64,000 nucleotides of DNA from Wuchereria bancrofti (lineage: Eukaryota > Nematoda > Chromadorea > Rhabditida > Onchocercidae). The translations under genes and the position numbers were made by a program. The stretch spans positions 5,781,564 through 5,845,563 of the forward strand of contig SSBO01000012.1 in the NCBI GenBank assembly GCA_005281725.1. Direction: 5' to 3'. Positions 3,001 to 56,543 of this stretch are shown here, one piece after another. Each line of letters starts with the position of its first letter. Position 1 is the first letter of the stretch. Below the pieces are notes generated by a model. That model worked only from the letters and a program-made list of their open reading frames with translations, had not been told where the DNA came from and made no database searches.

Positions 3001-5150
3001 CGAACGTGTCCCAAAACAATCAACATGTGCCGAGATATATGCCCAATAAATACTTAAACAAAGTTAGCAATAACAGATAAACCTTCATTTTTCTGATAGC
3101 AAGACCAAGACGCTTTAAATGTCCCAGCTTCTTGATGCCAATATCTTCGAAGTCTTCCCACGTAAAATTTTTAACTTCACCAATTCTGCAGTATCCTTGA
3201 TCCTCGAATAAAGCAACATATTCAGGAAGGCCGATTAACGGAAGCCAATCTCTAAAGCATTAACAACAGATATTAGTTTTGTTTGAACAACAAAACAATC
3301 AAACAATTAAAAATTTGATCAAAAACCAAAGATTAAAAATGAACACTATTGAAAATAGAACAATTTAAATCCCGTATTAAACAAAAAACTAATAGCAATA
3401 GAAACAACCTTAACTCTCCCGATGGTACCAGTGTAGGCCAAGTATTGGTTATATGCCACCTATGAATTTCAGAGATGAGAAATCTTCGATGAGTTGGATG
3501 GGTTATTCCCAATGCTGTCAGATCTTCAGGTGTAATCCGTGCGATCGTCGAGAGATCGTAGCCTTGAGTCAAGAATGTTGTTAAATATTCCGGATATCCT
3601 AAACCACCCAGCCACAGTGCCAAAATTTCTGCTTCCTGTAACATGCTTGATAAGTTGAATTTAATTCGATCCCATAAAATGGCATGAATCTTTTACGCAA
3701 AGTATAGAAAATGGCAAAAAGGGACCAACAAAAAAAAAAAAAAATATGAAGCGAAAGAAACACCAGACTTCACCAATGCATAAATGTCACAAAAATAGCG
3801 ATTGAACTATTGCAAAAATGAAAGTGTTAAAAACCACCAGCGAAAAAAGAAAGAATTAAATACAGGACATGAAGGTGTTGGGATTAAATTGATCACAACA
3901 AATAAGTTCACTTTAATATAAATCGAATTTTACTTCCGTCGTATTTATATCACTAAAAACTTCTGCATTTATATAAATTTTTATGTGTGTAGCATACCGA
4001 CATTCTTTTGATCATTATGTCAGAAAACGATAATCTAGAAAAATTCTTTAAATTATCTCCATGCAAATGTTCAGCTCCTGAATCGTCGAACATGTTCGTC
4101 ATATTATTTATGATTAAAGAAGCATCACCACTACTATTGCTCTGTATCGAAAGACGCGATTGCGAACTGTTCAGCAATAGGCCCGATGACGATCCATATA
4201 CTGCAATTAAAATCGAAACTTAAGACATCATAGCTTGATGTTTTTTGATGTTTTGAGGCCAATAAGTTATTAGTTCACAAAAAATTTGCGACTGAAACAG
4301 CTCAAAGTCAATAAAGTGTCGATACAGATAAGAAAATCTGCAAAAGAGACAAACTTGTAGATGAAGTTCTTAAAACTGCAGAATTACTACCAATAGCGTC
4401 TTGAGTATCAATTGCTGAACAAACATGCGAGGAACCGTTCTGAAACAAGCTAACCATTCAAACAAACAAAAATTTTGATTTTGCTATTGCTCTATTCGAG
4501 ATACTTAAAACTGAAGTGTTCTTGCCTTAATCTTATTTCACTGCTTGCAATTCACTGAAATCCTATTTTGAACAATTTTTATTAAAATATTAAAATTTCC
4601 TACCTCAATCAAGAAGCAAGTTTCGGAACTTCCGCTTATAAAGTTACAGTTTATTTGTACTTTAATATTTTACCTAGCCAGTGAATTTTGTATTTTTTAC
4701 TTAGTCAATTAATTCCGATCTCTCTGAAAAATATTTTACGAAAGCTAACCCTTTATACTGAGGACTTCAATAATAACGTCCAAAAATTTAAATTCGAAAA
4801 AAATCTTACGCATCACAAAACCAATACGTTTTCACAACAGCAGTAATGAAGAAATTATTGTCATTATTTGAATGTTGTGAAAATGATAGCAAACCGAAAA
4901 ATCTAGGCACCTTCATACTTTCAAAACCAGAACTGCCATAACTTGAACTAGAATCGGTTGAATTCCGATGGCATCCATTACAAGACAAATCATTAGAATG
5001 TCGTCCATTAACATAAAGGGATCGTTGTTTCAAAGAAAACAATGAGGATGGTGATAGATTGACTAAATTTTCCTGACATTCTTTTTCTAAGTTCATAGAA
5101 CAATCTGAAAGTTTTCTCGACATCCTTTTAACCAACAGCTTTATTGAATG
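77..5150 (-). CDS. caskin: Caskin-like scaffold protein, 3' half with tandem SAM domains
   Basis: Cytoplasmic neuronal-type scaffold protein; in animals Caskin binds CASK and its tandem SAM domains polymerise. Seven exons are seen, read right to left: ~5150-4919, 4200-3998, 3635-3409 (SAM1), 3251-3083 (SAM2), 2177-1916, 1600-1333 and 176-77 (stop TGA at 79-77). Phases agree at every join. SAM1 carries GYDLSTIARITPEDLTALGI, close to the Caskin signature. SAM2 carries NFTWEDFEDIGIKKLGH, also Caskin-like. The exon at 5150-4919 is Ser-rich with SSYGSSGFE; the exon at 2177-1916 ends in an acidic then proline-rich run (SEDYPPPP). The last exon encodes a basic tail ending RRLLPDLKNG. The ankyrin repeats and SH3 domain expected at the N-terminus are not identified. 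The acceptor near 5150 is uncertain, and extra exons between SAM2 and 2177 or between 1333 and 176 cannot be excluded. Family assignment is strong; the non-SAM exons rest on phase and composition. Confidence 0.8.
177..1332 (-). other. Last intron of the Caskin-like gene
   Basis: Bounded by a GTAAAC donor at 1332-1327 and a GCAG acceptor at 179-177. The phases on both sides match (phase 2 then one base). AT-rich; no further exon is supported. An open minus-strand stretch at 992-789 has no convincing splice sites and was not called. Confidence 0.45.
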
Positions 5151-22720: not shown

Positions 22721-23294
22721 GAATTCTTGAATGATATTCAACGAAAAATGAGTAGATTGGCCTACATGTGCGAAGTTGAATATGATGATATTGGTAGGTT
22801 ATTCGAGTTTCACTTGTTTAGACAAAAAATTCTGTTTTTATAGAGATTTTTTTTGCCAACAATTCAAGGAAAAAGAATTTTGAAAAATACTACTTCACAT
22901 TTTCACGATTGCAAGGTTACATTTTATAATTTGATCAAATGATTAGCTCATATTAGCAGCCAGTTTGCTTTGTTATTTTAAAGAACCATTTAGAAAATTC
23001 ATAACTGTGTTATTTCCACTGTTGAAATGTAAATTGAAATAGCTTCATAATTTCTAATAAAATGCTAAACTCTCCAAGATATTCCATTTAGAGCTGTGTA
23101 AAGCAATGAATTCACTATACAACATGTGGAAAAGCAACCCCCTGGAAGAAATCGAAAACGATACTTTAGTGTACATTAAAAGTGCAAAAGAAAAAGTATT
23201 GACTGATGAAGATGTTGAAATTGTTATTGATTTTCTCCTCGAGATGTATATAGATCAGCTGGATAGATTTATCCAGACATCATGCTCTAAATAA
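22721..23294 (+). CDS. 3' end of an unrecognised gene, two exons
   Basis: Exon 22721-22793 follows TTTCAG and ends at a GTAGGT donor in phase 1. Exon 23092-23294 follows TTTAG, restores the frame and ends in TAA. The joined ~91-residue product is charged and predicted helical, with stretches such as EFLNDIQRKMSRLAYMCEVE and LTDEDVEIVIDFLLEMYIDQ, ending SCSK. There is no signal peptide in these exons and no recognised domain. Acidic-basic alternation and lack of long hydrophobic runs suggest a soluble protein. Upstream exons must exist, since the first exon here starts in phase 0 without an ATG at its head, but none was found. Confidence 0.5.
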
Positions 23295-26200
23295 TTAGTC
23301 GTTATCGGGGATTTTTTAAATGAATCGAATATATATTTCAGTGTTAATTCTGATTAAATACTTTACAAAAAGTACGCATCGTATTTTCCCAGTTATTGCT
23401 TAGAAATTTCTGCAATTTAATGTATGAAATTTAATGCATTGACAAAAACTAGTTTAATTTCAATTTACTAACAATATACCATACATACAGGATTAGATGA
23501 AAAAAGTAGCATCTAGAAAGAAATGAAAGTGAATAAAGTACCAGGTGAATTTCATCTGAGAATATGTAAAACTCTGAGACTTTTAATATGTAAAACTCTG
23601 AGACTCTGAGACCTTAAAGACACATTTAACTAATATTGTGAATCGCTACATAAATATTTCAAAATCTATATGGCATTGTCAAACCTTTCATTCTCGCCAT
23701 TTATTTATGACTCACTTTTCTGGAGAATATATATTCAATTGTTGAAATTTGAATTTGCAATAAAATCTGCAAAAAAAGATGTAAAAAGAGATTAATTAGC
23801 ACAAAACGTAGCAAGAATTAATTAGAAAGATTTAGATTTCTTAATATCAGACAATGATATTTTGGATCGGTTGCATTGTTCTTCCTTTGTTCACACTGAG
23901 TTTAAAGTTATTCCTGTCCGAATTTGTACATATTGTAATATCCCCATACTTAAGAAATCACTCACTGATCTATTTCCTGAAGTTTTGACTGGTCTGCTCA
24001 TACTTTTCAAGCCACTCATAAATCAAATGATATTTGATTCTCATTTTTTGACAGAGGTTGAGTCGGCTAAAAGCCAAGTTGAGATGGGAAAATCAATCAA
24101 AAAAGCGAACGACCTAAGAACTGCTCTAACAAGATGAAACAACTGTTTTTGGATGGGGCACTCATTTGTAAAATTATTTTCGTCTTTGCGCAGTTTTCAC
24201 TACAACAGTGCTCCACTTTTCTTTCCGGATTTCTACTTCAGCACCCCAATTCATTTTGTTCTTGCTCAGTGTTTATTCCTTATCAAATATCTCTTCTTCG
24301 ATTATAATTAATTGCATTGGTTGCCATAAATGTCAAGCATCTATAATTAAGCATTTTTTCAATCATCTTCATAGCCTTAATATTTGAAGGTTAAACTCAC
24401 ATTTTCAAAAATTTTTACCTCTAAGAAAAAATGGCTGGATACCTAGTATTTGGTCATTTATTCGTAATTCAGTAATGGGATGTTTTGACGGTTAGTAAAA
24501 AAGACATCCGTAATTATTGTGGTCACCCAAGAAGGAATCCATAATTTTAATAAGTTTCCTTATTTGCAATTTAAAAGACTGGGAGGCAAGTTTTACTACA
24601 CTGACAGTAATTTGTCTTACAAAACTGAAGAATTTCCAGAAAACTTGCAAAACGCATCTGTTATCGGGGCATAGCTACGGAAAGCGATCAAGCCGAAAGA
24701 GATTCCTTGAAGATCTGTCACCTGAAGAAGGCTTAAGATACCAAACATTTATATCAATTTACCAGTCAGGTTTTAAGAATTCTATGAAATGAATAGAAGC
24801 TGAAGTATTCCAGTAGAATTTAATTGTCGCTTCATTCTAGGCAGATTTTGGGGAGCACATTCATCTCAAAAAAGTTTGTATGTGGATGACTTGAAAAAAA
24901 AGTGTAGCGAATAAATTATTTTCAATGTAAGCCAGACTATGGATAGTCCTGTGCTGAATATACATTATTTCTGCTGCTATTATCGTTGTTAGCAACATCC
25001 AGAGCAATAGCTGCAGAAATAAAGTAGTAGCAGACAGACTTAACTGACAGATTGTTTAGGTTTGAACAGCATCTTAGCTTCCCCTATTTCAGCGCAGCCT
25101 TTTTCGAAAATTTTCAGCCACTTCTGTGTGTTATTTGAACAGCTGTTATAAACTGCATCCAACTTGAAATTTTTAAGTTTTAAGTGAGTGAGCATTAGCT
25201 TCTTTTTCACCTTTGGTTTCCTTTCATTTTATTTCTTCCGGCTTCTTTTTTACTATTGCATAAATTTCTGTAAATTACTGACTCACTTCATTTTAAGATA
25301 AAATTCTTCTCATACTCTTCTCATGCAACCGAAATTTGATCTGTGCATAAAGTGATAGTAGTTTGGTAATATTGTGTTTATATTTAACTGAAGATCAACA
25401 TTTTTGCTTTATCCTATAATTTATCTTTTATTCTATTCGCATTGCACTGCTATGCGTTCATAGCAAACTGTCCGGATGCTGAGCACAATAAGCCTCGCGG
25501 AGCTCTATGAGGAATACCGTTGGACTACCTCCTTTCATATAGCTTCCTCAATAGTCAGACGTCCAGGTGCACATTTAATTTGCCTACTGACAAAGCAGAC
25601 TATTAAGAAATCAATATAACTGAAGTTATCATTTTATACAATCTTACCAGTATTTGTAGCACCAATCATGAAGATCGAGAGGTACAACTAATCCTTAAAC
25701 CAGTATCATTAATTGACTGTTGATCGATGTAAAATTTCCCACTTTCTTCCTAAACTTCTTTTAAATCGAGTTCAAATTTTTTTGAGAATTATTTAAGATA
25801 AATTAGATCTATAATCTCGTCTTTCAAATGAGATTCATTTGCCAGCTGTTTTAGCTTTTTCTTATTCTTCAAATTTCTATATCTTTTTTTATACAAAAAA
25901 TTCATATACATTAACTATCAACATTGTAATTTTTGTGACAGGACTTTATATTTCATATTATAAGACGTATATAAAGCTCGTACTATGATACGTACCTTCA
26001 GTAATATAGTATATTCATTTTCTACCTTACGAGCGAAACTCAATATAATACAGACAAAATTTGGGTAATGTCGAAATCGAATATGGCTTGTTGGTAACGA
26101 TACCTGTGCTAATGTCTAAGCCATCGTACATTTTTACGAACACTTTTCCATCAAAAATTTCATATACAATGAAAGCTCAATATGCATTCATGGAATATGA

Positions 26201-27743
26201 GAGGATATTTATCGGCTGTTACAGAAAACAAAATGCCATTAGGAGTAAAGAAGTATTGTAATAAATTACTATCCATGTAGGATGCAGCTGTTGGAAATGA
26301 TAACTGTTAAGTTTCGCTCACACAAAAATCCTGCCGTTCAGTTTCTTCTGCCATTTACTATGACATCATTTCCATGAAGAATGAGAAATAAGTTAGATTA
26401 AAACTTAACCAAAAAAGAAAAGAAAAAAGTCTGATATTTCTGAAGAACTGAAGAATTTTATTCCGCATTAAACTTCTGCATGATTCGTCGATGTTTACAG
26501 TGATCGTGCACAGCGAGAGATTTTGGTATAATATAATTCATAAAGCCCTATAAAGCTTATCATTTACAAAACATTCGGAGGTAAGGATTTAATGCATGAT
26601 CTGTTGCAAATACTAGCCCTTTCAAATAATTAGAACGTGGAACTTTTTAAATAAGCTCATATTTGCCATACTTTTCCGCTCAAGAAACACATATATTTGA
26701 GTGAGGGTCACTGGTGATTCTCTTTCAATTTGAAACTCCATGGATATCCCAGTAATCTGTATTTTTAACTATATGACCCTTTCTTGCTTCACTTTTGCTA
26801 GCCTGTGGTCGAGAGAAATATTTTTGAAGACAACTGCGCTGCATCTAACTATTTTTGTGTGCCAAATGGCATGTTTTACCTTTATGGCTTTAGTTTATCA
26901 ATCTTTTTTATTGATGGCGGTCTTGGTAGTTGTTAAACTTTCATCCGAAATTAGTTTGAAAGACGAACTCTTCTTAGTGAAAATCTGCTTTCGACCAACA
27001 AATCTCAGAATCTGTTTTTTCCAGTCTTCTCCCATTTTCTCTTATAGTTAAAAGCATTCTGAGACTTTGCAATTGTGAGATCAAAAAGTATTTCAAAAAT
27101 CATTAAAATTTCGTTAGAATAATATAATATCATTAAAGTAATGTCATTTCGGAAGGGAAAAATATTAACGCTGGTATTTTGTCTTCCAAATAGTTTGGAA
27201 CTGCACACTTCTTGGTAAGAAAACACAAATAATTCAGTATACTTATGTTTTCCGTGTTAACAGTCATCTGCAATCTATTACTGAGGGGGTTAGTAACTGC
27301 AAAACTAGAGATCTGAAGCGAGCAGGCTGAGAATTACCTTCGCTCTTATAAATATCTTGACTTTACATTGAATCAAAATAATACAACTGACCTAGAAAAT
27401 ATGATTGGCCTAGAAAATGTTAGTTTGAAAATCAGTAAACCCACTTTATTGATATACTGGACTTTTTATATTATTCCGTTTCAAACAAAACTGTCGATAT
27501 TTGCTTAACAATTCTTCATTTTACCTGTAGTCAGCTTACTGTCGAAAACTAAGCTGAAACAGAAAGGATTTAATTTTTGAAGTAAAGATACAAAATGTAA
27601 AATGGTACAATATCTGGATTCTTCTACCGTGTTCCCACTGTGATTTTAACATTTCCAATGATATTGATCAAGAAAATTTTTGGAATATTGTTACAAGCAC
27701 GAATTTAAGACTTTTGCAAGGCTTTTCAAACTTTTAGCTCCGG
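23295..27743. other. Gene-poor AT-rich stretch
   Basis: No gene firmly supported. About 65 open plus-strand codons around 24489-24670 read protein-like (KFYYTDSNLSYKTEEFPENL) but stop at a TAG, and a further protein-like segment follows in another frame to 24790. This may be a decayed or spliced exon. A 103-codon ATG frame at 26740-27051 is hydrophobic with no known relative. Both are left uncalled as genes. Confidence 0.4.
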
Positions 27744-27909
27744 ATGCTAAGATATTCATATGTGAAAACATTTTTCGTTATTTTTTTTCACGTGGTTATT
27801 GTCAACCAAATGGATAAATTAAGAATACATATTGAAGTTTTGAGTTGTGAGCGCTCAAAGTTTGCAAATGTTTTTGTTAGGGACGCTGAACGTTGTAAAG
27901 TATTTAAAG
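27744..27909 (+). CDS. Possible first exon with a signal-peptide-like start
   Basis: The open frame begins at 27744 (that codon may not be the true start; an in-frame ATG lies further in, before DKLRIHIEVL). Its hydrophobic stretch is KTFFVIFFHVVIV, and it ends at a good donor GAAG/GTGAGT in phase 1. The following residues (VLSCERSKFANVFVRDAERC) are extracellular-looking with two cysteines. Joining to the next plus-strand gene at 28232 would give an immediate stop, so it is not an extra 5' exon of that gene. No homologue recognised. Confidence 0.2.
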
Positions 27910-27920
27910 AAGGTGAGTCG

Positions 27921-27963
27921 TCCTAGGTAGACGTTTGTTCAGTCCTAGGTAGCTGAACAAACG
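27921..27963. repeat. Hairpin interlaced with a direct repeat
   Basis: cgtttgttcag (27932-27942) and ctgaacaaacg (27953-27963) form a perfect 11-base inverted repeat. The 10-base loop tcctaggtag is itself a repeat of 27921-27930 just outside the stem. Confidence 0.9.
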
Positions 27964-28231
27964 GTTTTGATCTGCAAATAAATTTAATTTGAAAAAACTC
28001 GAAGCTCACTAATCACGCAATAGGCCGAATTCATTGGACTTATATTTTAGCACTTATATTTTTTTTTCTTTTTTTAACGAATGCTTCATCCTCATCAAAA
28101 CATCGTTCATTACAGCCTTGAATTAATTTCATGTTTAAATAATTAAAACTTGAAGCATTCGGAGTGAAAGCAAATTTTAAATTCGTTGGTACTGAAACAG
28201 AGTTCAAATTCAATGGTCTTATTTGCTTAGG

Positions 28232-29532
28232 ATGACGACCCACAGATCGCAAATGGTGTTTATTGTGGCTGTGGTTTTAACCTGTCTTGCTCTGCATCAT
28301 ATCCAAGCGATGCGGATAAAACGAGATCATTCTGAACAAGAAAACCGCAAAAATGAAACGGATATAAATCACGGTGAGCATCAAGAACATGGCCATGAAC
28401 ACCAAAACGATTCTAGCCATGAAAAACATGAGCATCACAACTGTTCTGGAAGCCATGAAAGTCATAGCAAGGAACACAGTGACGAAGATCTCCACGAAAA
28501 GAAAACCCATTATTACTGTAAATGCCGCGGCCATCATGACAATGATTCGGAAAGCCATGAACATGATGAACATGAGCGTGTTGGTGAAAATGACACAGAA
28601 ACTCATGTTCATAAAGGTATCCATGAACATGTAGGTAATAATTCAGATAGTAGTGAACATAATCATCAAGACTGTCGTTGCCATTGTCACTGTCCGAAAC
28701 ATAAAGAAAGCAATAATCAGGAACAGAAACGTAGGGGTCACAGGAAGGGAAGTCGGGAACACTGTCACTGTTTCTGTCATCATCACAGAGATGAACAGCA
28801 CAAGGGATCAGATCAAACGGAACGACATGATAAGGAGCACAGTGAGGAACACAAAAGTTAGCATTTCATTCTTCCCAAAGTACATTACTTGATTTTTTTT
28901 TTTCGTAATTATATACTAAATATCTATATATCTTTTTGCTTACAAAATTGAGAAGGAAAAATAATTTTATAACCATAAAGTGTCCTCAAAAAATTTCAGC
29001 CAAACAAATTATAATAAATGAATACGAAATTGTATTTGCTATCAGTGTTATTAATAAGATTCTTTTGTTTCAGAAGAGCCTGAAGAAAAAGAACACAAGG
29101 AGGACAAAGTAATTTTTTGCAACATACTTCCTAACTACAAATCAGCGGTAGTGAAACTTTCACAAATGCCCTAATGAGACACTGAAAACTTTTCGTATAA
29201 AATATTCTAGGTTAAAGGGTCGGTTACAAAAATCAAGGGAATTAAAGTTCATAGTAAACTTTACTTATAAGACAAAATAGATTACTTTACTGAATCTTCT
29301 GATTATTAAATATCAGGACTTCAGAGATCTTTTTTCGTTTTATCCATTTTTAATCTTAGCCAATTTTAATCTTAGAGCTTTTAAGACTCTTTATGGTCTA
29401 TTGAAAGTCTACAGCTTTTTTGTACCAGCAAACATGCTGTTTGGGAGGCACTTAAAATGGTCATTTTTTTGCATCGGTATTTACAGTTGTTTGTTTCAGG
29501 ATCAAGATCAGGTCATGAAACTACTGTTTTGA
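28232..29532 (+). CDS. Secreted histidine-rich protein with Cys/His clusters
   Basis: Three-exon model: 28232-28856, 29074-29108, 29500-29532 (stop TGA), 230 residues; all joins are in phase. Exon 1 ends at a GTTAGC donor, three bases before an in-frame TAG (28859), so an unspliced 209-residue form is the alternative. The ATG lies two bases after TTTGCTTAG, a possible trans-splice acceptor. Residues 1-26 form a signal peptide ending HHIQA, followed by the dibasic RIKR. The mature chain is dominated by His, Glu, Asp, Lys and Ser. It has three Cys/His clusters (YYCKCRGHH, CRCHCHCPKH, HCHCFCHHHR) and at least six N-glycosylation sequons. Exons 2 and 3 add an acidic-lysine tail (EEKEHKEDK then DQDQVMKLLF). 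I infer metal binding outside the cell or in the secretory path; no known family is recognised. Apparent antisense frames here are composition shadows. Confidence 0.75.
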
Positions 29533-32500
29533 AGTTTCAAATGTTGTGCAGTAAGTTTTTTCTTCTTTTCCTTTTTTTTTTAATTCTGAACAACCACTGA
29601 GCAAAATGAAGTCATTACACCCTTTCTGTAAATAAGTATCCTCCAATCTCCTTTTTTAATTGAGGTCGTATTCTTGGCGTTATTGGTGCTACTGCTAATA
29701 TTAATATTAAATATATTAAACACCACTTGTAGAAATTCATGCAACTGACGTATGAGAGGTCTTATTGAAAAACCAGTGTGAAACTGACTGCTGCTAACTC
29801 CTCAGTCAACATAGATGAATTGTTTTGGTTTTACACTTACATTTATCACAGAAAGTTCGCTACTGCTACTATTTAAGTAACCTTAAAAGCTGGTATAGTG
29901 ACCGACACTGAATTCAATAGCTTTTCCGGCAGTTCATTAAATGAATGCATTTTTAGAAGGAAATGTAATCTGAGACAAAAATTTGGGAACCTTTTATTTT
30001 TTCATCAAAGCGGAATTCACGTATTTTCCAGATACATTAACTGATTATATTCTCCATTATGCATATAAGGTTCGATTTCCAACAACTTCTAGCTTTACTT
30101 TTCAGGCATGATGTTAGCAAGCTAATTCTCTGCTGAAAAATGTGCAGTTATACGTAAACCTCGAAACTAGTGTGGAAAACTGTACCAAATATCTTTCAGA
30201 AGTTTAATGAATAAAAGTTTCATGCTTATGGTTATTATTTTCATTATTTTTGCCATTTGTAATTTAAATTCAATATTTAATTTATGACGAGCCTTTCAGG
30301 AAAATGATGATATTTGAAAAATGTTTCTCGTTTGATAAATTTCGTCGTAATTGTTTTTTTTTTTTCATTTTTTCAACAGGCTTACTTGCTACAAAAACAG
30401 CAAAACTGCTTACCACGTGAATGCCTTATTTTAAGGAAAAATTAGTCTTTAATTTAAATACATGATTCAGATAATGAGCAGCAACTGTTTATCATATTCA
30501 TGATGGTCTCTATTGCACTTACTGTTGTTAACAAATCATAAATACTAGAAATCACTTTACAAAGAAATTAACAAATTGATGCTATCTATCAACTATATGC
30601 CCACCTATAAAACTACTGACGTGTGATGTCGTCATTTTCATAAACTAATAATTCGTTACATAATGTGGACAGGCGAACAGAATTCAAACAATTTCTCAAT
30701 TTTGACAATCAAATCGTATTTTAAACTATCACTAACTGAGCTATGTCAGTATATGTTTTCAATATCATAGCAAAAATGGAGTTCATGCAAACGATAGCAA
30801 AGAGGCCAGTTTCTCACAATCAGTTCAAGTAACAATCAATTTGTACAACTGATTACTTAGAGCATATACATAAAAATAGCCCCTGTTAACCTTTAACAAT
30901 AATTGATTTTTCCTTGATAACAGAAAGCAAGTCCTTCGTCAGTGTAAAGTAAGTTACAATCCGTATAGCGTGCAATCTTAAGAAACCCTGAAATGCTGAA
31001 AATTTACAGTTGCTATTGAATTCAGAAAGCCGAAAGAAAAATTCACATTAATTGAAACAGCTTTACTTAGCTTTTTGAGCAAAAATAAACAAAGAGTAGA
31101 AAATTAATCACATACTGTTGTAGAAAAAGCCATGAGGAATATTGAAGGGAAATTAGCAAAAGTTGTTAAATTTTTCCGAAAAGCTTTTTTACATTTTTTA
31201 TCGAATATTTTGCGAAACCATTCTCTGCAAAAAAACGTAGCTATAAGTACCAAACAGCAGCAAATTAATAAATTAGAAAAATACGATAACTTTTAAAAAA
31301 GGTACACTAACGGCAAGATATATGTGCTGATGTCGGACTATCCAAGTATCTAAATCATCTAGTTGTGATTGACATTTGGATGTTACGAAAAGTGACTTCA
31401 CTTTCAATCCAAATAAGAACTCATGTATTCTGAATGCGGGGACTAGCGAAAGCATGCTTAACTTTTAATGACATGGAAAGAAGCAATTTTTCTCAGACTT
31501 AGAGAATAATATAATTTTGGATCTCTATAAAATCTAAACAGAAGTAGGAAATCCTTGCAGATGAGATAGTAGTAGCTAAAAGTTCTACATTTATAAGAAA
31601 CATCCAAAAGTTAAGAAGGTATAAGCACTTTTTTGTTATAATTATTTCTTCCATAAAGATTTATTAGCATAACTCGTTTTCCTTTTTTTCACCGGTTGAT
31701 TGTTACAACCTACGAGACGTGTAGAAAAGGAAAAGGTGGTGACAAGTGCCATTTTGAAACAATCATTATTTTTCTACTACTTCCAACTTATTTTCCTCTG
31801 AAATATAATAATTCTCATTGATCTGGACTTTCAAGTTTTCTACTTCATTTTGTCTCTCTTGAATTAATAAAATAAAAAATAATAATCGATCTTTGAACTT
31901 AGATTAATTGTTTGTTTTAACAACATTAGAGGACATGATACAAAAAATACTTTCCCGGTACGGTACATGGTTTATAACTTTTGCTTGTTGTTATTGAGAA
32001 TTAATAACAAAAAGACCAAAAAATATCAAAACTCGACAGGGAATAAATTTCTTTGTGAAGCACTGCTGCATTTTTAAGTAAATCAGATTCAAAAAGATTA
32101 CAGCCAAACGAAACGTTGATCACTGTTTGCTGTTATAGAAAACCGACCACTACTTGTATGTCTGAATTAAAGACGATGATGCCGTTTTTCGTCGCAGCAA
32201 AAATAGGAAGAAAAGAGTTCCTATTTCAAGCTTTTGTGTAGAAAAGATGAATTGAAAAAAATAAATTAATGCAGATCGCTGTAATCCTGTCTTTCTGAAA
32301 TCAATAAGAGCTGGTCTAGATCAGTTGATTTAAAAAACAACTTTTTGAGTTAAAACATTTCCGTTTCACTATTTCTTCCGTCTATTTCATTTTTGTTTTA
32401 CCATTTCGCTAGTTTATTATATATTGTAAAAATTGTTAACTATTACTAAATAAAAGACACTTTTGAACTTCATTTAAAATCATTTATCAATGGTTTTCTT

Positions 32501-34288
32501 TAATTTCCTTACCCACTATTTATTATTCACTTATCAAATTTTAACAGATGTTCTTAAGGTCCGGTTTAAATTTAAAAGATCATTTGAAAGCATTAACTTT
32601 ATATCTTTAATGAAACTATTTGTTTTGTCTTTCATCATAATCATTCTCTAACTTTAGTCACAATACATAAAAACAAAAGCACACTGCAGAACGAACGCAT
32701 AATGTACTTTTGCGCTTGTGACTATTGCTGTCATACGAACAAGTATAAATAGCAAGGGTGTGTTGGCGAAATAAGTGACCTTCAAACATCCTCATACCCC
32801 TCTTTTTCCTTCGTCCAAATTATACATCTACGGAAAATCGGCTGCTACTCTCCCGTACTTCCTTCATCTTACTACATTGATCAATGTATTCACTCGCACA
32901 AACAAACATATTGACGAATAAATGTCAGAACATGATACAAAAAATACTTTCCTGGTACGGTCCAACTAACAACTCTACTCTTGGATTGTAGACTCCTCTC
33001 TGGTCAACCTATTCTCCAATGATCATCGAACTTCACAGCAAATTTTTTTTGAAATTAAGTGCTCTGATCGCGCGCCAACCGACTATTCTAACGTCAACAT
33101 GTGTTATGGTATGCTTTCCAGCAATTACGTCAGATAAGAAACTAATCATGACCTTTGTATGTGGTTAATACATTTACCGATCTTTCGAATTAATATTATA
33201 AGAAAATTGTTTGAGAAAACTCTTAAAATATTCAGTTACCAACTGATTCTCATAAACAACTGTAAAAACTTCATCCTAATAAAGGTTTCGTACGAAAATC
33301 AGGATGTCGACATTAATTGTACCTAAGAAAATAGCCTTACCGGACTATGTTGTCTCTCGAAATAGAAAATTCTAATTTTATAATATTCTTTTGCTCAACT
33401 TGTCCTCCAATCAAAGTTGAATTTTATCATATTTTCGAATTCAAAAAAGCATCTCAAAACTTCGTCAAAGTTCCTAGTTCCTCTGCTCGCTAACTTTTGT
33501 TCCATAATTAACAATCCAGGCAGGTTTTGCTGATCTCCTTGTAAATAATGGATTCATTTAGCAGTAACAAGAATCTGCTCTTCCTCACTACTCCCCAGTT
33601 AATAAAAAAAATCATTTGGCAATTGCTTCAATTAATGTTCAAATAAAGTGGCTGTATTGTCGAAATTGAAACTGAAACAAATGTATTGTTGAAGAAAGAT
33701 TGAAGATCATTTAGGAGTACAAAACTGTTACAAAACAAGCACCCTAATTAATAAGTACCAAACAAAGGTGTAAAGATCCTGATCTAGTAGGCTAACAAAA
33801 GTAAGTTGCAAAATCGGCTCCTACATTTCGAATTATTAATTGGCGTTTTTGAAATACTCGAAAAAAAGAGGTGATGATATACATTCTGCTTAAACTTTTT
33901 CAGTGTTAGATTGATCCATTAGCAAGAACTCACCAAGATCGCTTAGGTTTCCAATGTTTTAAGTATGATGATATTATAAGTCTAGTTATGCCTCATCTGT
34001 CTTGAGCTATTTTTTTCTGTTTCTTTAACTTATTTCCTTGCACATCTCTCTCGTAAGTGACCATTTTCCATGATCGCTTTTATTCTCGCGGACGATACAT
34101 GATTTTCAGCGATTGTCGCTAAAATTAATTTTATTTTCTCTTAAACTGTATGACGTTTGTTAGCTATAGGTGCAATGTAATAAGCCTTATCCTTTATTAC
34201 AGTAGATGGAGATCGTAGCCCACATTGAGGTTCATGTTATCTTTTGGCTTTTTCATACTTTTATTTCTATTATATAAAACGATTTCAG
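29533..34288. other. Intergenic AT-rich stretch
   Basis: No gene supported. It contains a 32-base direct repeat with one mismatch at 31933-31964 and 32930-32961 (acatgatacaaaaaatactt and on). The first, membrane-spanning exon of the PTR gene should lie near its right end. A short candidate at about 34215-34238 (ATGGAGATC...) is in phase with the first called exon but does not supply a membrane helix. Confidence 0.45.
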
Positions 34289-37200
34289 ATAGCACTAGCA
34301 GCGTGTACTGCAAATTTTCACGCGAAGTTCAAAAATGATTTTCGTACAGACTTTTCTACGCCGTTATCAAAATCGTGGTCGGAGAGGGAATATTACCGAA
34401 GATTTTATAACTTGACATCTGACCCATATACGGTTATCCTTAATGCTTCCACTGTCAGAAAAGTAGTATAAAAAACTTATTTTTCGCTTCCTCTTTTTTT
34501 TTCCATCTTTTGCCTCTTAGCGATTGCTAACTTTTCATTTTAGAATGAAAGATCATATACCAATGATAACCCAAGCGAAATCTATAGTTACATAAATTCA
34601 GATAGTGCTTTTTGGTGAAAGCGTCGATGGAGGTTCCATGCTACGACCTGATAAATTTATTGCTATGGAACAGGAAGCAGAGCGAGGATTACGTATGCAT
34701 TTGGTCGGTGATGAGGTTAAGAATAGAACGCTTGGTTCTTATCTATACATTTCTTCAAAACCGTTTTATGAAGCTATTTCGGTTAGAATTTCATTGATAG
34801 GTACTACAGGTATGCTACACCCGTCATTTCTTTCATGAGATAAACACAATGATATGAGTCCACTTAATTCCATCCACATTTTTTAAAATTAGAAAGCAAA
34901 ATTGAAAAATCACAACTAATTAGTAACAAATGTAAACCAATTTTAGGAAGCGATCAAAATTCAATCAAATAAAAATGCTGTGCTTGGTTATCCAACGATG
35001 AATCTTTACGGTATTAACTTCACAACCAGGAACGTCTTTCGGCGTTATAGCAATGGTTTTGTTGGCATGCTGGTATACTCCTTTATATTTGTCGACCACC
35101 AGGATGTTGTTTCAAGTATAAAACGAGCTGAAGTTGAATGGAACAATAAGCTTAAGGTGTTTTTCGACTGGAAGCAAAAGAGTTCAATTACCGAAGGAAA
35201 TAAACGTCTAGGGATATAATCATAATTGAGATATCGAAATTGGAAAAATTACTGAAATATGAAAAATAATATATTCTAACGATTGGAATTCAGAAACGAA
35301 TATAAAATAATTTGTTCTCACAAGCAAATGATGGATTGAGTACAGAAATCCTTTTTTAACTCATTGTACATTTTAGCACTCAAATGAATCAGGTGTTCGT
35401 TTTCGATTATTTGGTGATGAAATTGTAAATAATGAAATATTTGTGGGTTCAGTTGGCTCCTTACCCTATTTCCTCACTGGTTTGCTTGCAATGGTCATCT
35501 TTATTTTTTTATCAATTCTTCATTACAAACAGGTTAGTTTTAAATAAATTCTGATTTCGATCTTACTTCCGAGAATGAAAAACGAACTAAACAGCAAATT
35601 AAAAATATCTAACAAAAAGTTGGTTCGAAACTTTTTGCAAAAATAATGAAAGCATTGTTAGTCTGTTATCATTAGTTTTGATAGTGTTTGAATCTTGCTT
35701 ATTAATGTAACGATAATTTTACTTCAGTCTTTTAATTTTATTGTATTTCTAGAAGATTATAATCCTCTAACTCTTGATATTTCTAGTTGAAGTCAAAATT
35801 GTTCGGGTCGTTTCAAATAATTCATTGATCACAATTTCAGACATTTTTGCAAACGGTTTTTTTGACACTGTGGACTACATTTTGTCCATGTCTGGCTGGT
35901 TTAACATCAGTTGCTGTATTTTCACTACTAGGCCGTACACTGAATTCATCCATGTCGGCTAATCTTACAGATCTACTATTAATGAATCTACTATTGCTAA
36001 TTTTCCAACTAATTATTTCTCAATCAGCGCATGTATTGATTTAAAATTAGTACAGGCACTTTATGGCAGTCAAATTATTGATTTAGATGTTTGTCAACCG
36101 CAAAAAATTTCATAATTATTTTTTTTGTCGGGTTTCATTTAAAATTTAAGATTTTTCATTTTAGACTTATCACACCATTCCTGGTATTAGCCGTTGGTGT
36201 AGACGATGCATTTCTAGTGTTACACAAATGGTTCACATCTGTTGAAATAGATTCCTTATCTCGTTTAACTTCAGTACTTGTAGAAATCGGTCCATCTATC
36301 ACCCTTACTTCAGTTACAAACATTTGTGCCTTTATGGTGAGTGTTGAAGTTATTTAGTTACTTGCTGAGAATGAAAGAATGTGCCGTAAGTTGAAATAGT
36401 AAACAAATGGTAAGCGTAATTCCAGTAAACATACTATAGGTTGGCAGTTTTTTTTCACCCAATGCAATTCGAGAATTTTGTTACTGTTCTGCTTTGGCAC
36501 TTATGCTTGATTGGATATTTCAAATTCTAGTATTTACTCCAATACTAGTAAAAATTCACTCTTGTTCATTCAACATTTCAAGGAAAGGCAACAAAAGGTT
36601 TGTTCCTTAAAAATTACTAGAAAACAATATATATATATATAATAAAACAAAAAAGTTGAAACTTAAGAAACTGAAATAAAGTGTTTATTTATCAAATTTT
36701 GATTCCTGAATAATTTCATGATGAATATACATCACACATTTTATTAATTTTTTTCAGATGCAAATCATCTTTCAAAAGTTATTGCGAATTTTTGATGCAT
36801 CCTGTTACGAGAATTACTTTATTGTGTATTCTTATTCCTTTTTGGATCTGTAATGTATATCTTGCACTTCGAATGGAGGAAAATTTTACACCGCAAAAAA
36901 CAATCCGATCAGATTCTTTTCTTACTGATTCGTTACCAATTCTTGAAAATGTACGCAATTCAGGTGTAGATCGGACGATGTATACATCCAGAAGTTCAAA
37001 CAAACTAAAATATTTAATTCGACTTAAGTTTAATCCAAAAAAGGCGAAGTCTACATAATAGTCAATATCCTTTCATTTTCTATTGCTATGAAATAGAATG
37101 AATCCAGAAAAAAGAAAATATAACAGTTTTGCATTAGTAAAAAAAAAAGTTCTTCATTTGTTTATGCTGAATTGAACTGCTCTAATTACGTATTTTACCA

Positions 37201-38978
37201 TTCTTGTTTTTAGGACTAACAAAATTTTTTTTTTTTTAATTTTTTTTTCTAACAAAAAAAAAAAAAGTTTTAGGCTTTTATGGAACATGAAATCTTCCCC
37301 GTCTTTGTGAAATACATTCCAGACAGGACGACAGAATTATTAGATATTGTGGCGCATGTACATAATCTTGACTGCTTGTGTCCAAATTATATAACTTGGA
37401 TTGAAGAATATGCTGCTCTATACGGCTACACAAACAGCACTACTGAAAATTTCTTTAAAAATATAATGAAATATCTTGATTACAATCCCGAATTGGCGAA
37501 GAATTTAGTTTTGCGATTTGATAGGTTCATGAATTTTTTTTTTTTGTTTACTTTCTGCGTTCAGAAAATGATTATCAGCACCACTGGTTGTTTTTAGAAA
37601 AAGTCGAAAATCTTCATTTATCAGAAAAATAGGATACTGTTGGGCAACCGAAACTTTTGTCGAACATTCGAATAAATTTAAATTGCATTATGATATGGAA
37701 CAAATTGATATAGACAATTTTACTGTAACCAAGTGTTTGCGATAAAGGTTTGTGTTGCAGGACAGTACATAACTTTCTTTTCATACACTAACTATATAAT
37801 AAGTTAAAAACTATAAGATGAAGATGACTGATCAAAGTGTTTAGCAGTGGAACTGCCACAGTTGACAAAATATCCTTTGACTTGTGCATTCATGGATATG
37901 GTAGTTGGCGTGATCGAGCTTTTATTCATAAACAGATCCGAGAAAAGATGCCTGAAGAAATGCTGGTATACGATTACGACTGCACTTTATTTGACATCAT
38001 ATTGACAGCTCGAGAAACGATGCTTCAGTCATGTGTCATAACATCCATCACCATGCTTGTCATTTGCACATTGTTCATCCCAAGCGCTCGAGCTACTGCT
38101 TTCGTCCTCCTTTCCATGATTTCAGTCACTACGGGTCTGTTATATTTCCATAAATTATTAGAAAAATTCTTTCCAAATTATTTAACAGTAAACAGCTTGA
38201 CGAAGAAGTAAAAGAAAATACTGACAGCTTAAATCTAAAGATTTTCAACGAACTCATTCACAGCAGTGTCCACTGCAAATTTCATTTTCGATTCAAAGGT
38301 AATTTTGCGATAATGTTTATTTTAAGCCAAGTATCTATTTCACCTTTTTACACAATTTATGAACCAAGTAATTTTCTTGCTGGAACTTTGTTTTCTAGTG
38401 AAATACTTTTATTTCGATAGTCATCTGTTTTTTTTGAAGTTGAAATTAATGATTGTATGAGGTTTTCAGGAATAGTAGGAGGTTTAAGTGCATGGGGCGC
38501 TGATATGGACATTATTGTAACCATCAGCGTTGTGATGGCAATCGGCTTGACAATTGATTATGCAGCGCACATAAACTATCATTATTTTGTAATGAATTCA
38601 ATGCTGCCTCCGATAGATCGAATGTCCTCTTCGTTACAAGCTATTACTTATGCTACCGTTCAGGTGAAATACTTTTTGGTGAAATTTCATGTTGTTTTGT
38701 TCATGCTTTTGGCAGGTCACATTTTCTGACTACCATTTAAACATTTTTGAGATCAATGTTTCGATCAAAATCAACTTTCTGAAAAACAACTCATTTCAGA
38801 TAGTTAATATATTTCTATACAATTTCAGGCAGCGGCAACTACACTTATATGCGTTTTGCCTCTTTATTTTTATAATGTATACATGTATGTTACATTCGCC
38901 GAAGCGATTATACTATGCGCCGTATTTGGCCTTCTACATGCTGTTGTTGTTATACCTTTTCTGTTGTTGCTCTTCTGA
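34289..38978 (+). CDS. Patched-related (PTR) membrane protein with sterol-sensing domain
   Basis: RND-type transporter-like protein of the nematode PTR family, which acts at apical membranes and in cuticle/moulting. Thirteen in-phase exons: 34289-34432, 34602-34781, 34947-35156, 35377-35532, 35841-35953, 36165-36336, 36440-36597, 36758-36950, 37274-37524, 37598-37732, 37845-38134, 38470-38663, 38829-38978 (TGA); 781 residues. First extracellular loop: SDPYT then IVLFGESVDGGSMLRP. First sterol-sensing half: FLTGLLAMVIFIF, LNSS, PFLVLAVGVDDAFLVLHKW, IGPSITLTSVTNICAF. Second loop is followed by the C-terminal bundle with MAIGLTIDYAAHI and a last helix ending HAVVVIPFLLLLF. The GVDD and TIDYAAH motifs are typical and intact. 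The family usually has 850-950 residues; the missing part is the first membrane helix. Exon 5 uses an unusual GTCGGC donor and exon 10 a GTGTTT donor, chosen because they restore conserved protein. Neighbour: a decayed paralogue immediately downstream. Confidence 0.85.
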
Positions 38979-45287: not shown

Positions 45288-45413
45288 AGTGGTTTTGGTA
45301 TGCCAAATATGCCAAAAAGAGTTCGAAAAAAATCTTTCAAGACTCGGAGGTTATGAGTCTGTTGCAAGATGGAGGCGTCCTTAAAGCCTACACGGACATC
45401 ATCAATAATCCAG
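45288..45413 (+). pseudogene. ST13: Fragment of Hip (ST13) C-terminal domain
   Basis: Reads GFGMPNMPK, then after a frame change IFQDSEVMSLLQDGGVLKAY and TDIINNP. This matches the Met/Gly/Pro-rich linker and C-terminal DP/STI1-type domain of Hsc70-interacting protein (Hip), an Hsp70 co-chaperone. It is separated from and placed before the TPR fragments, the reverse of the normal order. The frame break and the downstream inverted TPR piece mark it as non-functional. Confidence 0.65.
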
Positions 45414-45581
45414 TTTACACGTCATGGCTAGATTACGATGAGCCTCCACAAAATTGCCAAGTAACTTGTGAGCTCGTCCACGAAACTTATAACCTTGTGC
45501 TAAGTCTGCATTTAATGAAATTGCTTTATCACAATCGCGAATTGCACCGTTTGGTTTGTTCAACTTCAGAAGCGCATTCGC
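45405..45581 (-). pseudogene. ST13: Inverted fragment of the Hip (ST13) TPR domain
   Basis: On the minus strand, 59 codons encode [20 protein letters not shown] through [14 protein letters not shown] and end CKLDY. This is the second part of the Hip TPR domain, including the AIRDCDKAI and GRAHKLLG helices. It is followed by a stop. It overlaps the C-terminal fragment by about nine bases (aataatcca), possible microhomology at the junction. No intron is present. Confidence 0.8.
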
Positions 45582-45584
45582 CGA

Positions 45585-45964
45585 GCTGGATATGTCAGGA
45601 GTAATAAAGGGCGAAGAAGACAAACTGTTTCCAATGGGTGATGATAATAAAGAGATAACTGAGGATGATATGGAAAAGGTAACAACGCTGTAAAGGCATT
45701 TAATGAAGGAAACTTTGAGGAAGCTGTGCTGCATTTTACTAGTGCCATCGAACTGAACTCAAGATTAGCTGTTTTGCACGCAAAAAGGGCAAATGCGCTG
45801 TTGAAGTTGAACAAACCAAACGGTGCAATTCCCGATTGTGATAAAGCAGTTTCATTAAATGCTAACTCAGCACAAGGCCATAAGTTTCGTGGACGAGCTC
45901 ACAGGTTACTTGGCAATTTTGTGGAAGTTCATCGTGATCTAGCGATGGCGTGTAAATTGGATGT
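45585..45964 (+). pseudogene. ST13: Hip (ST13) TPR region, frameshifted copy
   Basis: Plus-strand [20 protein letters not shown] continues through EITEDDMEK and, after a single-base frameshift near 45681, [20 protein letters not shown], then three TPR helices ending GRAHRLLGNFVEVHRDLA and CKLD at ~45962. This corresponds to residues from the acidic linker through the TPR domain of Hip. Intronless structure suggests a processed retrocopy. Over the shared 58 residues it differs from the inverted copy at 9 positions, so the two are not a recent perfect duplication. Confidence 0.8.
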
Positions 45965-46629
45965 TGTTGGTAGAAAATTTTTTTATCTGAAGTTATTGGT
46001 AGTTGATTTGAGACAAATTTCCGTACTTATGTTACTTAATTGGTCTATCCTAAGACTTTCTCATAAAATACTGTTTTCTGGTTACTGTTTTCTTAAACTG
46101 TTCTGTATAGGTGTCAAAAATCATTTAAAAAAAAACTAATCATTTTGATTACAGCACTACTTAAAACTAGTAAAATTGCAGTAATACGAGTTTACATAAT
46201 TTCATGCAAATTTCCTAATCACTCATGACTGTACGTACCATTATTCAAATTGGAATAAATTTAATATAGACCGCAGTCATGTAGTACAATCTTTCTCTTG
46301 CAGGTGGTTTATCTACATGTTAGGGAATAATGCATTGTATCAAGAATTAATGTAAAAGAAATCTACTTTCTTTTTTTGTTGGTCAATTTTCCATTATTAT
46401 GTCTGGTTTTGTTATCATAGAGCTGATGCTTGTTTTTGTTTCTTTGTAACCTACCTATACTCCATTGGAAAGGGAATAAAAGAATTGATAAGATGAATGG
46501 ATTGTTGTGAATTACTTATACTATCCAACAGGATCTGTAGCTTTAACTACTGCTTCTGATATTAATTATGTTTTGAAACTTTTTTACCGCTCTCCGGACA
46601 GTTATTTCCTTCGCAAATACAGTGCAGTG

Positions 46630-51219: not shown

Positions 51220-52799
51220 ATGCCTGCAACTATAACATTAAGCGCACGACCGGCAAAAGAAAAATTGGAAGCTCTTCTCAAAGAAATCCAAGAAATGGAT
51301 CTAACGCCTTTGGAGCAAATGTTGACCAGAGAAGAAACCCGTCAACAGCACGAGGCTCGAAAAAGAATTATTGAAGAAAGAACAATGCGTCTCAAGCTGC
51401 ATATTAGCACACTTGAGACAATTAGTACTAACTGGATCCAATACATACAACAGGTCCCAGCAACGAAGAGGAAACAAGAAGAAGACAAATACGCCCAAAT
51501 GGTCGAAGATAAAGAGGTATTTTAAACTTAATAAGTGAAGGCAAAGAAGTCATCATAATCTTAGATATGTGTATGAATGACTCAGAGTTAGTAATCCAAT
51601 GCCTTAAAGAAGGCGAAATAAAGGAGCAACCAACTCAGATAACCTATTATCCAACGGTTAACTTACTTCAACTACCATTGTCTACCTTCAAAGAGAAAAC
51701 AAGAAGTGATAATCCTGAACTATGGAGAGGATTCTGGAGTAGCTTTGAAGCTGCAGTCCATTTACAAAAAATATCAGACATCCAAAAATTAAATTATTTA
51801 ATTGCATGTCTAAAGGGAGATGCTTTATTGGCTATTAGAGGTTATGATATAACCCCAGGAAATTATGATGTGATGCGGAAAGTCCTTATTGAAAAATTTG
51901 GGTAATCACACATCATTAAAAAATCGCTCTATAATAAGTTATATACCGTCAAGAAGAATGATCGAGAATGGAAGGTAACATCGAAGCTACTGAAAGGATA
52001 CTTCGACAACTTAAAGGAATGGGTGAAAATCTCGAACAATCCAGTATTGAAATTATTATTGAAAATAAACTGTCCGCCTGGATTCTGGAGAGTATATCAA
52101 CAAAAGGAAGAACAAAAAATATGGTCAGTAGCTAAACTACGACAATTTTTAGCAAAACTGATCCAAAGAAACGAAGAAGTTACAAGAGGCCAATCCTTTG
52201 ACATCATGAAAGAGCAAAAGGAATCTAAAAATAAACTTGGTCCACGGTCAACGATATTTTACAGACGAAACTTCTGCTCTAATTGTAACAACACCGCAAA
52301 CAAATAAGCTAATATAAAGATTAGCAAAACCCAAAAACCATGTGCCTTTTGCAATAAGAACCACTGGGATAATGAATGCCAAACTTATCCTAGTCTAAAA
52401 AGAAGAATGCAACCACTGAAAGAAAACAACGCCTGTCTAAACTGTCTTCAACCAAGACATATGACAATTAATTGTAAGACAAGAAAACGTGTTTCTATTG
52501 CAAAGGTCACCATTATACCGCGTTATGCTACACTAAGTATAACGATCAAGCACAATCAGTGGGGTAAATCGAAGAAGATACAAAGACGGTAAAGGTAATC
52601 AACCCAGTTATAAAGCATTCGACACGAAACGATAGAGAAGCATTTTGCATTTAAAAAGCATTTTGCTTTTTAGCAAAGAAGTTGAAGTAATTAATTTAGA
52701 CATGCCAGAAGTTTCAAATAAAATTGTAGTTTTATTCGATAGCGGTGCTCAAACAACGTGTATATCGAAGAAACTAGCAAAAGAATTACACCTAGAAGA
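51220..52799 (+). pseudogene. Broken gag and protease region of the BEL/Pao element
   Basis: Starts ATG at 51220 with a charged, coiled-coil-like segment. The core contains NPELWRGFWSSFEAAVHLQK and ACLKGDALLAIRGYDITPGN, typical of the DUF1759 gag core. Cys/His knuckles read CAFCNKNHWDNEC, CLNCLQPRHMTINC and, in another frame, CKGHHYTALC. Breaks include TAA near 51523 and 51903, frame changes near 51970-52090, a TAA at 52305, a frame change near 52480, and one after the protease motif at ~52800. These make a functional gag unlikely. Protease active-site motif DSGAQ is present. Confidence 0.75.
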
Positions 52800-54974: not shown

Positions 54975-56139
54975 GAATGTAATTTCAATAGAAATCATAG
55001 CGAATATGAAAGCGAAGAAAAAGGCCAAAAGATTGTAGCACGTTTCACTATCGATAAAACCTTCAAATTAATGAATTGAAACAATATTATTGGACAAGAA
55101 ACAATTGTGAATTTTGATGAAGAATGTTCAAAAAATAAAGAAAGGCAAACTTTTCTTAGTAAAAGTCCCTACGAAAAGAGAGAGAGAGGACAGAAGAGAG
55201 GAAGAAAAGACAGATCAAAGTATTAAAAGTAAAATACATTTAAGTTGGGTAACACACTAGTAAAACGCATTTGAAAAAAAAAAAGTTTTAATTTCTGTGA
55301 TGCAAAACTTAACTTTCATAAATTAATTACAAACTGATTTTCGAAATTTTATGACATTTATTATTAGTAGTATTATTTGTTATTAGTATGATTATTATTT
55401 GAAAAAAAAATTGAACACTTCTATATAATGTTAGAAATAAAATTATTTATTATTATTACCACTTTTTTGGCGCTAGGTGAAAACAATGCCGCTTTATTGG
55501 TGATATGTTTCACGACATAAAATTCGCGACAAATATAAATCGTATTCCAAGTTATTACCACTATTTTTTATTTCTGCATAAATAACATAATATAAAATAT
55601 ATCAAAAAAATAAATAAAGTTAATTACAAAATTGAAGCATATTTTTTAAATCATAATTTCAAAATTATTAATTGTAATATTTGAAATTCAGTTTTTTTCT
55701 TTTTTCTGAATTTAAAGCAGCAGTTTCATTTTTTTTTAATTATACAAATTCATAGTAAAATAAGATGAAGCGAAGGAAAACACTGAAATCAATGATAGAA
55801 TGTAGCTTATGATTTTAGTCCAAATTTTAGGGTAGTTTTTTAATTTTATATTTGTAATTTATCTTGTTTATACCCGAACATTCTCTCGAATATATTATTA
55901 AAACATGCCTTCAAGATATTGATGACCTAGAAAAGCCAGATTAATTGTTTTATAGATATTAAGAAAATATGCCATAATCATTAGTAATTTCAGTAAAAAT
56001 TGATTTAATCGAATCATCGAGTAGAATGTATTAAATGAGAGTAATTAAGTCTGATTTTGATTGAATTTAAAAACTTGATTTATTAAGTTAAGAAATTAGA
56101 TTAAGTATTAGAGCTTTACTTTTATCAGTTATCTTTTTA
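54975..56139. other. 3' flank of the retroelement, end of first contig
   Basis: About 100 bases of pol-like read-through, then AT-rich non-coding sequence. The whole block reappears after the N at 56140 (56544-57710). Confidence 0.7.
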
Positions 56140-56140
56140 N
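56140..56140. other. Single-N scaffold join 1
   Basis: The 1570 bases to the right (56141-57710) repeat 54572-56139, so the two contigs overlap rather than abut. Confidence 0.9.
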
Positions 56141-56543
56141 TCAAAACAGGAAAGCTTCTTTAGTTTTCGCCAAATCGAGAATTGCTCCCATTAAGGGTAT
56201 GACTATTCCAAGATTAGAATTATTAGCCGTGCTGATAGGAGTACGCATTGTTCAATTTGTTATTAAACAAATGGAATTAGAGAATATTGATGTCACCTTA
56301 TGGTCAGATTCCAAATGCGCATTACACTGGATGCAGAATCATTCTCGCCTACTACCAAAATTCGTTCAAAATCGAGTTGAAGAAATAAAACAAACAAAGC
56401 TCTCATTTCGCTATCTTCCAACTGAATTTAATTCAGCTGATGTGGCCACCAGAGGACTTTCCCCACTTCGTCTTACACAATTTGAATTATGGTGGAAGGG
56501 AACAGATTGGTTAGCAAAAGAAGAATCAACATGGCCAGTCTGA
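56141..56543 (+). pseudogene. Second copy of the RNase H end of the BEL/Pao Pol
   Basis: Matches 54572-54974 and ends at the same TGA. About eight substitutions fall in the first ~270 bases (for example ENIDV for ENINV, WMQN for WIQN), then almost none except a GA indel near 56755. It is either the other allele of the same insertion or a paralogous element collapsed onto it; it is not an independent gene. Confidence 0.8.

Follow-up and report, generated by a model that had tools for sequence, protein, structure and literature searches.

The locus described here lies on the plus strand of a 64-kb stretch of the Wuchereria bancrofti genome (hereafter the window, meaning the whole stretch of DNA that was analysed), which sits on a 24.1 Mb contig. 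An ATG at 28232 opens a frame that runs to a TAG at 28859-28861 and encodes 209 residues, 42 of them His and 11 Cys. Splicing 28232-28856 to 29074-29108 and 29500-29532 gives a product of 230 residues that ends at 29532, reproducing the product proposed in an initial annotation of this DNA; length and end match that earlier reading, and the inner boundaries were placed in this analysis. The 230-residue form contains 43 His (18.7%), 33 Glu, 11 Cys (4.8%) and six N-glycosylation sequons, together with 3 Phe, 2 Tyr and 2 Pro. Its C terminus would be MKLLF, and that of the 209-residue form HKS.

Exon 1 (28232..28856, plus strand; 208 codons plus 1 base) holds nearly the whole protein and, if left unspliced, reads into the TAG. 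Proposed exon 2 (29074..29108, plus strand; 35 bases) would encode KEPEEKEHKEDK with a split first codon, and proposed exon 3 (29500..29532, plus strand) would add DQDQVMKLLF and a stop. Scored with approximate nematode splice matrices, the acceptors at 29074 and 29500 are strong (top 0.8% and top 0.4%, respectively, among the 3346 plus-strand AGs of the window), and the donors at 28857 and 29109 are weak (top 5% among 3041 GTs). At least 10 E, D, K or H residues are found in only two of 63965 11-residue segments read on the plus strand, and since both lie in exon 2, this exon is in character with the body of the protein. Set against the strong acceptors and this body-like composition are the weak donors, at least four rival acceptors of similar or better score at 30032-30300, up to 800 bases downstream, and an AATAAA at 29013..29018 (plus strand), a hexamer common in AT-rich DNA but one that might provide the poly(A) signal if the transcript is left unspliced, and compatible with the 209-residue form. 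In addition, skipping of exon 2 leads into a different open frame that reaches a better donor at 29551. From the letters of the DNA, the three-exon model, that is, both 3' exons, is plausible but uncertain; the initial annotation had proposed all three exons, of which the 230-residue product and its end are reproduced.

Immediately in front of the ATG, an acceptor-like TTAG scores poorly (top 22%). Further upstream, a 57-residue frame at 27744-27914 has a hydrophobic start and ends at the strongest plus-strand donor of the window (27913, AAG/GTGAGTC). No Pfam match was found in this region, and the one other genome match of the frame is weak (E 0.06). It was rejected as a first exon of the gene, because joining it to 28231 brings an immediate stop in its own frame.

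The flanks of the gene were scanned for domains in six frames (23280-28232 and 29500-34452, with stops treated as residues and introns ignored), and nothing exceeded the cut-off; the matches below it were DUF3176 (E 0.001) and TAF1C_beta-prop (E 0.019), both on the minus strand. The possibility that the exon is the His-rich part of a ZIP or CDF zinc transporter was rejected, as neither flank gave such a match up to E 0.1, and with introns ignored the flanks scanned contain no transporter or other domain able to own the His-rich exon. Rfam returned nothing at gathering level within the 64-kb window. Further away, the window contains a SAM-domain exon (3333-3692, minus strand) and an exon with Patched and sterol-sensing matches (36082-36357); by eye, frames at 34947-38729 resemble further exons of one Patched-related gene, and the one that was searched (37828-38211) gave no match. 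TPR (Hip-like) exon sequence is duplicated in inverted orientation, with arms of 175 nt at 45408-45582 and 45788-45962 that are 205 nt apart and 90% complementary; frames are open on both strands, and their TPR peptides are closely similar. A Pao-type retrotransposon at 52743-54974 carries a frame of 743 codons that matches Peptidase_A17 and reverse transcriptase; adjoining frames, beginning at 51175, are possibly part of it, and a frame at 56112-56543, whose first residue is undefined, repeats the end of the Pao frame almost letter for letter.

Measured from stop to stop, the His-rich frame spans 221 codons, a length exceeded in the window only by the Pao retrotransposon frame. This length was reached in none of 100 simulated 64-kb windows (first-order Markov; longest frame 168 codons). 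The His-densest 200-codon stretch, which crosses one stop, contains 43 His, and elsewhere in the window the count does not exceed 19. Both synonymous codons are in use for His (CAT 28, CAC 14) and Glu (GAA 23, GAG 5), no 5-residue word is repeated within the 209 residues, and the only tandem repeat inside the frame is a 19-base stretch; the frame is therefore not a recent DNA repeat.

The predicted protein begins with a signal-peptide-like segment, MTTHRSQMVFIVAVVLTCLALHHIQA (28232..28309, plus strand; residues 1-26, with a putative cleavage point at its end), whose residues 8-20 have a mean Kyte-Doolittle hydropathy of 3.0, as against a GRAVY of -2.27 for the mature chain. This start, which is signal-like by sequence and in the structural model described below, agrees with the signal peptide of the initial annotation, and the dibasic site read there is likewise present, as a furin-like RIKR at residues 28-31 (28313..28324, plus strand) that would be a cleavage site. 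The mature chain of 204 residues contains 40 His, 10 Cys and 50 Asp and Glu against 32 Lys and Arg, and nowhere is it hydrophobic (15-residue means reach -1.1 at most). Three short Cys/His clusters interrupt it: YYCKCRGHH at residues 94-102 (28511..28537, plus strand), CRCHCHC at residues 148-154 (28673..28693, plus strand) and CHCFCHHH at residues 178-185 (28763..28786, plus strand), the latter two having been named in the initial annotation. A further basic motif, KRR, is located at residues 166-168. With RIKR just past the signal-like start and KRR further on, the protein could be a precursor that is cut at basic sites to release bioactive peptides, the His/Glu-rich body serving as spacer; we regard this as very improbable, because 5-residue words never recur in the 209 residues and the Cys/His clusters would be left unaccounted for.

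A single-sequence AlphaFold model has a mean pLDDT of 52, falling below 50 over residues 63-146. It contains one helix (residues 3-47), with mean pLDDT values of 76, 95 and 82 for residues 1-10, 11-20 and 21-30, and two short low-confidence strands where clusters 2 and 3 lie. Low pLDDT is what is expected of a disordered chain, and although a single-sequence model is weak evidence for disorder, it is consistent with a chain that is probably disordered behind the signal peptide.

Motif counts were compared with those in 5000 shuffles of the mature chain (204 residues) that the 230-residue form would yield. CxC occurs six times versus 0.42 in the shuffles (reached in 0 of 5000), CHC or HCH five times versus 0.46 (reached in 2) and HE or EH 21 times versus 12.95 (reached in 38). 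The sequons, given as six or more in the initial annotation, number six versus 1.25 (reached in 3 of 5000). The many His-x-x-His spacings that it had also singled out turn out to be at chance for the composition, with six HxxH observed versus 7.58 (reached in 4098 of 5000). HxxxH is not enriched either (seven versus 7.58, reached in 3369), HxH does not go beyond chance (10 versus 7.58, reached in 977), and HH is rarer than in the shuffles (four versus 7.66). What stands out beyond composition is the Cys/His clusters and the sequons, not the His spacings.

In agreement with the initial statement that the protein belongs to no known family, no relative was found in Pfam, in the PDB or among 5.8 billion proteins. 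The protein search returned 15 candidates in a length range of about 126-402 residues, none of them a match up to E 1, and with a longer range (about 220-700) the same collection returned 10 candidates, none matching up to E 10. A scan of viral contigs gave no match. For the 209-residue form, Pfam (up to E 10) gave one match of 10 bits, far below its cut-off, the four NCBIfam matches scored 6-10 bits versus cut-offs of at least 50, and the PDB sequences gave none up to E 1. As control, we searched with the TPR frame at 45669-46139 of the same window, for which 39 of 66 candidates matched, with named rows from eight filarial genera. The best was from W. bancrofti (97%), every listed match from outside Wuchereria being at 80% or less, which accords with the parasitic nematode origin assumed in the initial annotation. 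The Wolbachia surface-antigen family PF01617, sought as a pointer to the host, had no match. The TPR frame is a conserved gene, so that the control shows the presence of filarial proteins in the database and not the complete annotation of small, fast-evolving ones. With a composition correction of 90 bits applied, the self-score of the query is 439 bits, and pieces 100-109 residues long reach 203-216 bits; given such a self-score, an orthologue that is close, annotated and of suitable length would be expected to surface. The protein searches cover annotated proteins, and genes lacking a model as well as own-species or very near records may be left out of that coverage. Among the titles and abstract openings listed by one open library for the terms used, none reports a secreted His/Cys-rich filarial protein.

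The search of the worm's own genome (86.5 Mb, 108 contigs) for a second copy matched only the gene itself, a count to be read as a lower bound. The matches of three degenerate DNA patterns were not far above background, as judged against a reversed control: the CRCHCHC-type pattern, with at most two mismatches, had 127 versus 89 (eight loci inspected), the HEH-type pattern 25 versus 22 (25 loci inspected) and a third pattern 42 versus 27 (30 loci inspected). In the CRCHCHC-type list, which is ordered by mismatches, cluster 2 of the gene is the only row with zero mismatches. Loci were filtered for frames of at least 60 codons, with L010-L064 scanned on the plus strand only. L045 and L046 share a CHCFCH-coding string that lies in no long His-rich frame. 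L006 and L007 contain short frames rich in Cys and His, of 66 and 97 codons, respectively, that look repeat-derived by eye. The 97-codon frame of L007 (G000:C3, around 2007244-2007264) is Arg-rich, has 20 Cys and probably originated from a short DNA repeat. A match of the HEH-type pattern (L033; G000:C12, around 21842024-21842038) falls in a His-rich loop that is followed, by eye, by a CDF zinc transporter-like stretch.

The absence of a homologue from two protein searches and of a second copy from the genome search would fit a locus that is no functional gene, be it an open frame peculiar to the lineage, a copy in decay or a piece of another gene that has been misread. The weak donors point the same way, as does the strongest donor of the window, just upstream at 27913, from which splicing to the weak acceptor preceding the ATG runs at once into a stop in its own frame. 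Yet the length of the frame relative to the simulated windows, the intact signal-like start and the enrichment of sequons and CxC make this reading improbable. We regard the locus as a probable real gene that is an orphan as far as the searched collections go and has a candidate role in metal handling.

Tentatively, and at somewhat less than an even chance, we favour the explanation that the gene encodes a secreted, probably disordered N-glycoprotein that buffers, stores or sequesters Zn or Cu outside the worm's cells. The filarial gene would give rise to an acidic secreted glycoprotein of about 200 mature residues, from which the signal peptide is removed and whose chain is perhaps trimmed at RIKR. 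Soft metals (Zn or Cu) would be bound tightly at the three short CxC/His clusters, and the intervening His/Glu/Asp-rich stretches would offer many weak, pH-dependent sites, so that the protein could buffer, store or sequester transition metal extracellularly, in the pseudocoelom, the cuticle or secretions. Support for the gene and for a metal buffer comes from a frame beyond chance and from CxC, Cys-His alternation and sequons above shuffles; metal binding itself is what we infer from composition and the CxC/His clusters. A published nematode precedent is provided by the Fe, Ni and Zn measured in Ts-PCHTP (PMC2954182) and by the zinc-dependent glycosaminoglycan binding of p43 (PMC12238268). 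Counting against a metal buffer are the chance-level HxxH and HxxxH and the lack of a homologue in two protein searches. Moreover, in the oxidising secretory pathway the cysteines may be disulphide-bonded instead of metal-bound. Haem, which the initial annotation had listed among possible ligands, finds no backing: the protein contains a single CP dipeptide, its HxxH spacings are no more frequent than chance, and nothing in it points to haem in particular.

CxC clusters spaced along a flexible hydrophilic chain, with no folded domain recognised by Pfam or in the AlphaFold model, would also suit a structural protein of the extracellular matrix (microfilarial sheath, eggshell, cuticle or copulatory material) whose His and Cys form cross-links via metal bridges or disulphides. 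This alternative is doubtful, though it deserves attention: the chain has no regular repeats and few aromatics (3 Phe and 2 Tyr in 230 residues), and six sequons would be more usual for a soluble glycoprotein. It is unlikely, in our estimate, that the protein faces host or microbes, withholding or scavenging Zn or Cu (or haem) in host fluids as an antimicrobial or against host metal withholding. The signal-like start and the His/Cys content are compatible with such a chelator, and a report on black-fly saliva suggests that the His-rich acid proteins found there are chelators of Zn or other ions and antimicrobial (PMC3285218). These Simulium proteins are secreted, acidic, His-rich and lineage-restricted like the filarial protein, and have HG, HPH and QPE repeat regions (PMC3285218), whereas the filarial protein has no HP or PH dipeptide, two HG in 209 residues and 2 Pro in 230. 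Against a host-facing chelator also stands Ts-PCHTP of Trichinella, which is reported as not excreted (PMC2954182). Nor does the filarial sequence itself display any preference for haem.

Several well-known proteins share part of this combination. Vertebrate histidine-rich glycoprotein is secreted, N-glycosylated and very His-rich, binds metal and haem, and has cystatin-like domains and HHPHG repeats. The filarial protein resembles it in predicted secretion, sequons and His richness and differs in domains and repeats: no cystatin-like domain is among the Pfam matches of the 209-residue form up to E 10, and HHPHG and GHHPH are both absent from the protein. The histidine-rich calcium-binding protein of the sarcoplasmic reticulum (HRC) has a signal peptide, a disordered His/Glu/Asp-rich chain and a Cys cluster, as well as acidic tandem repeats and a CxxC-type C terminus. 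The signal-like start, the predicted disordered His/Glu/Asp-rich chain and the Cys cluster are common to both, whereas the tandem repeats and the CxxC-type C terminus are found in HRC only, and no HRC repeat or domain matched the filarial protein in Pfam up to E 10. Metallothioneins are cytosolic proteins of about 60 residues with about 30% Cys, few His and CxC motifs for soft metals. The filarial protein shares the CxC motifs (six versus 0.42 in the 5000 shuffles) and not the short, Cys-dominated, His-poor build without signal peptide (4.8% Cys, 18.7% His, hydrophobic start), and metallothionein is not among its Pfam matches. Plasmodium HRP2 has HHAAD and AHH repeats, neither of which occurs in the filarial protein. 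Filarial worms belong to Clade III of the nematodes.

The nearest published nematode analogue that we found is Ts-PCHTP, whose defining motifs are absent from the filarial protein. It combines a signal peptide with poly-Cys domains and a His tail and carried nearly two equivalents of Fe, Ni and Zn; it was localised to cuticle and tissues, and the worm is reported not to excrete it (PMC2954182). The related p43 is a disulphide-rich lipid carrier of the p43/dorylipophorin (DLP) family of Trichinella and Trichuris (PMC12238268), with zinc-dependent glycosaminoglycan binding (PMC12238268, Discussion). The filarial protein is like these in being a nematode protein with a signal peptide, here predicted, and many Cys and His. 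PCHTP is unlike it in its size of about 48 kDa, its two homologous poly-Cys domains (CxCCC.., CGxCS) and its seven-His tail, whereas the filarial protein has no CC dipeptide and no CGxCS, has no HHHH (the longest His run being three) and alternates CxC with His. The history of PCHTP/p43, in which Cys/His richness was first read as metal storage and the protein was later found to be a lipid carrier, is a warning for the present case. By analogy, the filarial protein may work like PCHTP/p43, histidine-rich glycoprotein, metallothionein or HRP2. It lacks those of their defining features that were compared, CxC of metallothionein apart, and we do not class it with any of them.

A more far-reaching version of the metal buffer, which we consider rather unlikely as a whole, is that a secreted glycoprotein restricted to the worm's genus and perhaps its nearest kin independently joined metallothionein-like CxC/His clusters to a disordered chain like that of histidine-rich glycoprotein. 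It would then be a newly arisen extracellular metal buffer and a possible genus-specific antigen, possibly acting against host metal withholding.

No annotated protein that we found resembles the product, although filarial proteins are well represented in the database. The gene bears on whether the lesson of PCHTP/p43, that Cys/His richness taken for metal storage may later prove to belong to a lipid carrier, extends to filarial worms. If truly taxon-restricted and secreted, the protein would be a candidate marker antigen; if secreted as predicted, it would be a candidate for carrying metal in the body fluid or at the surface of the worm.
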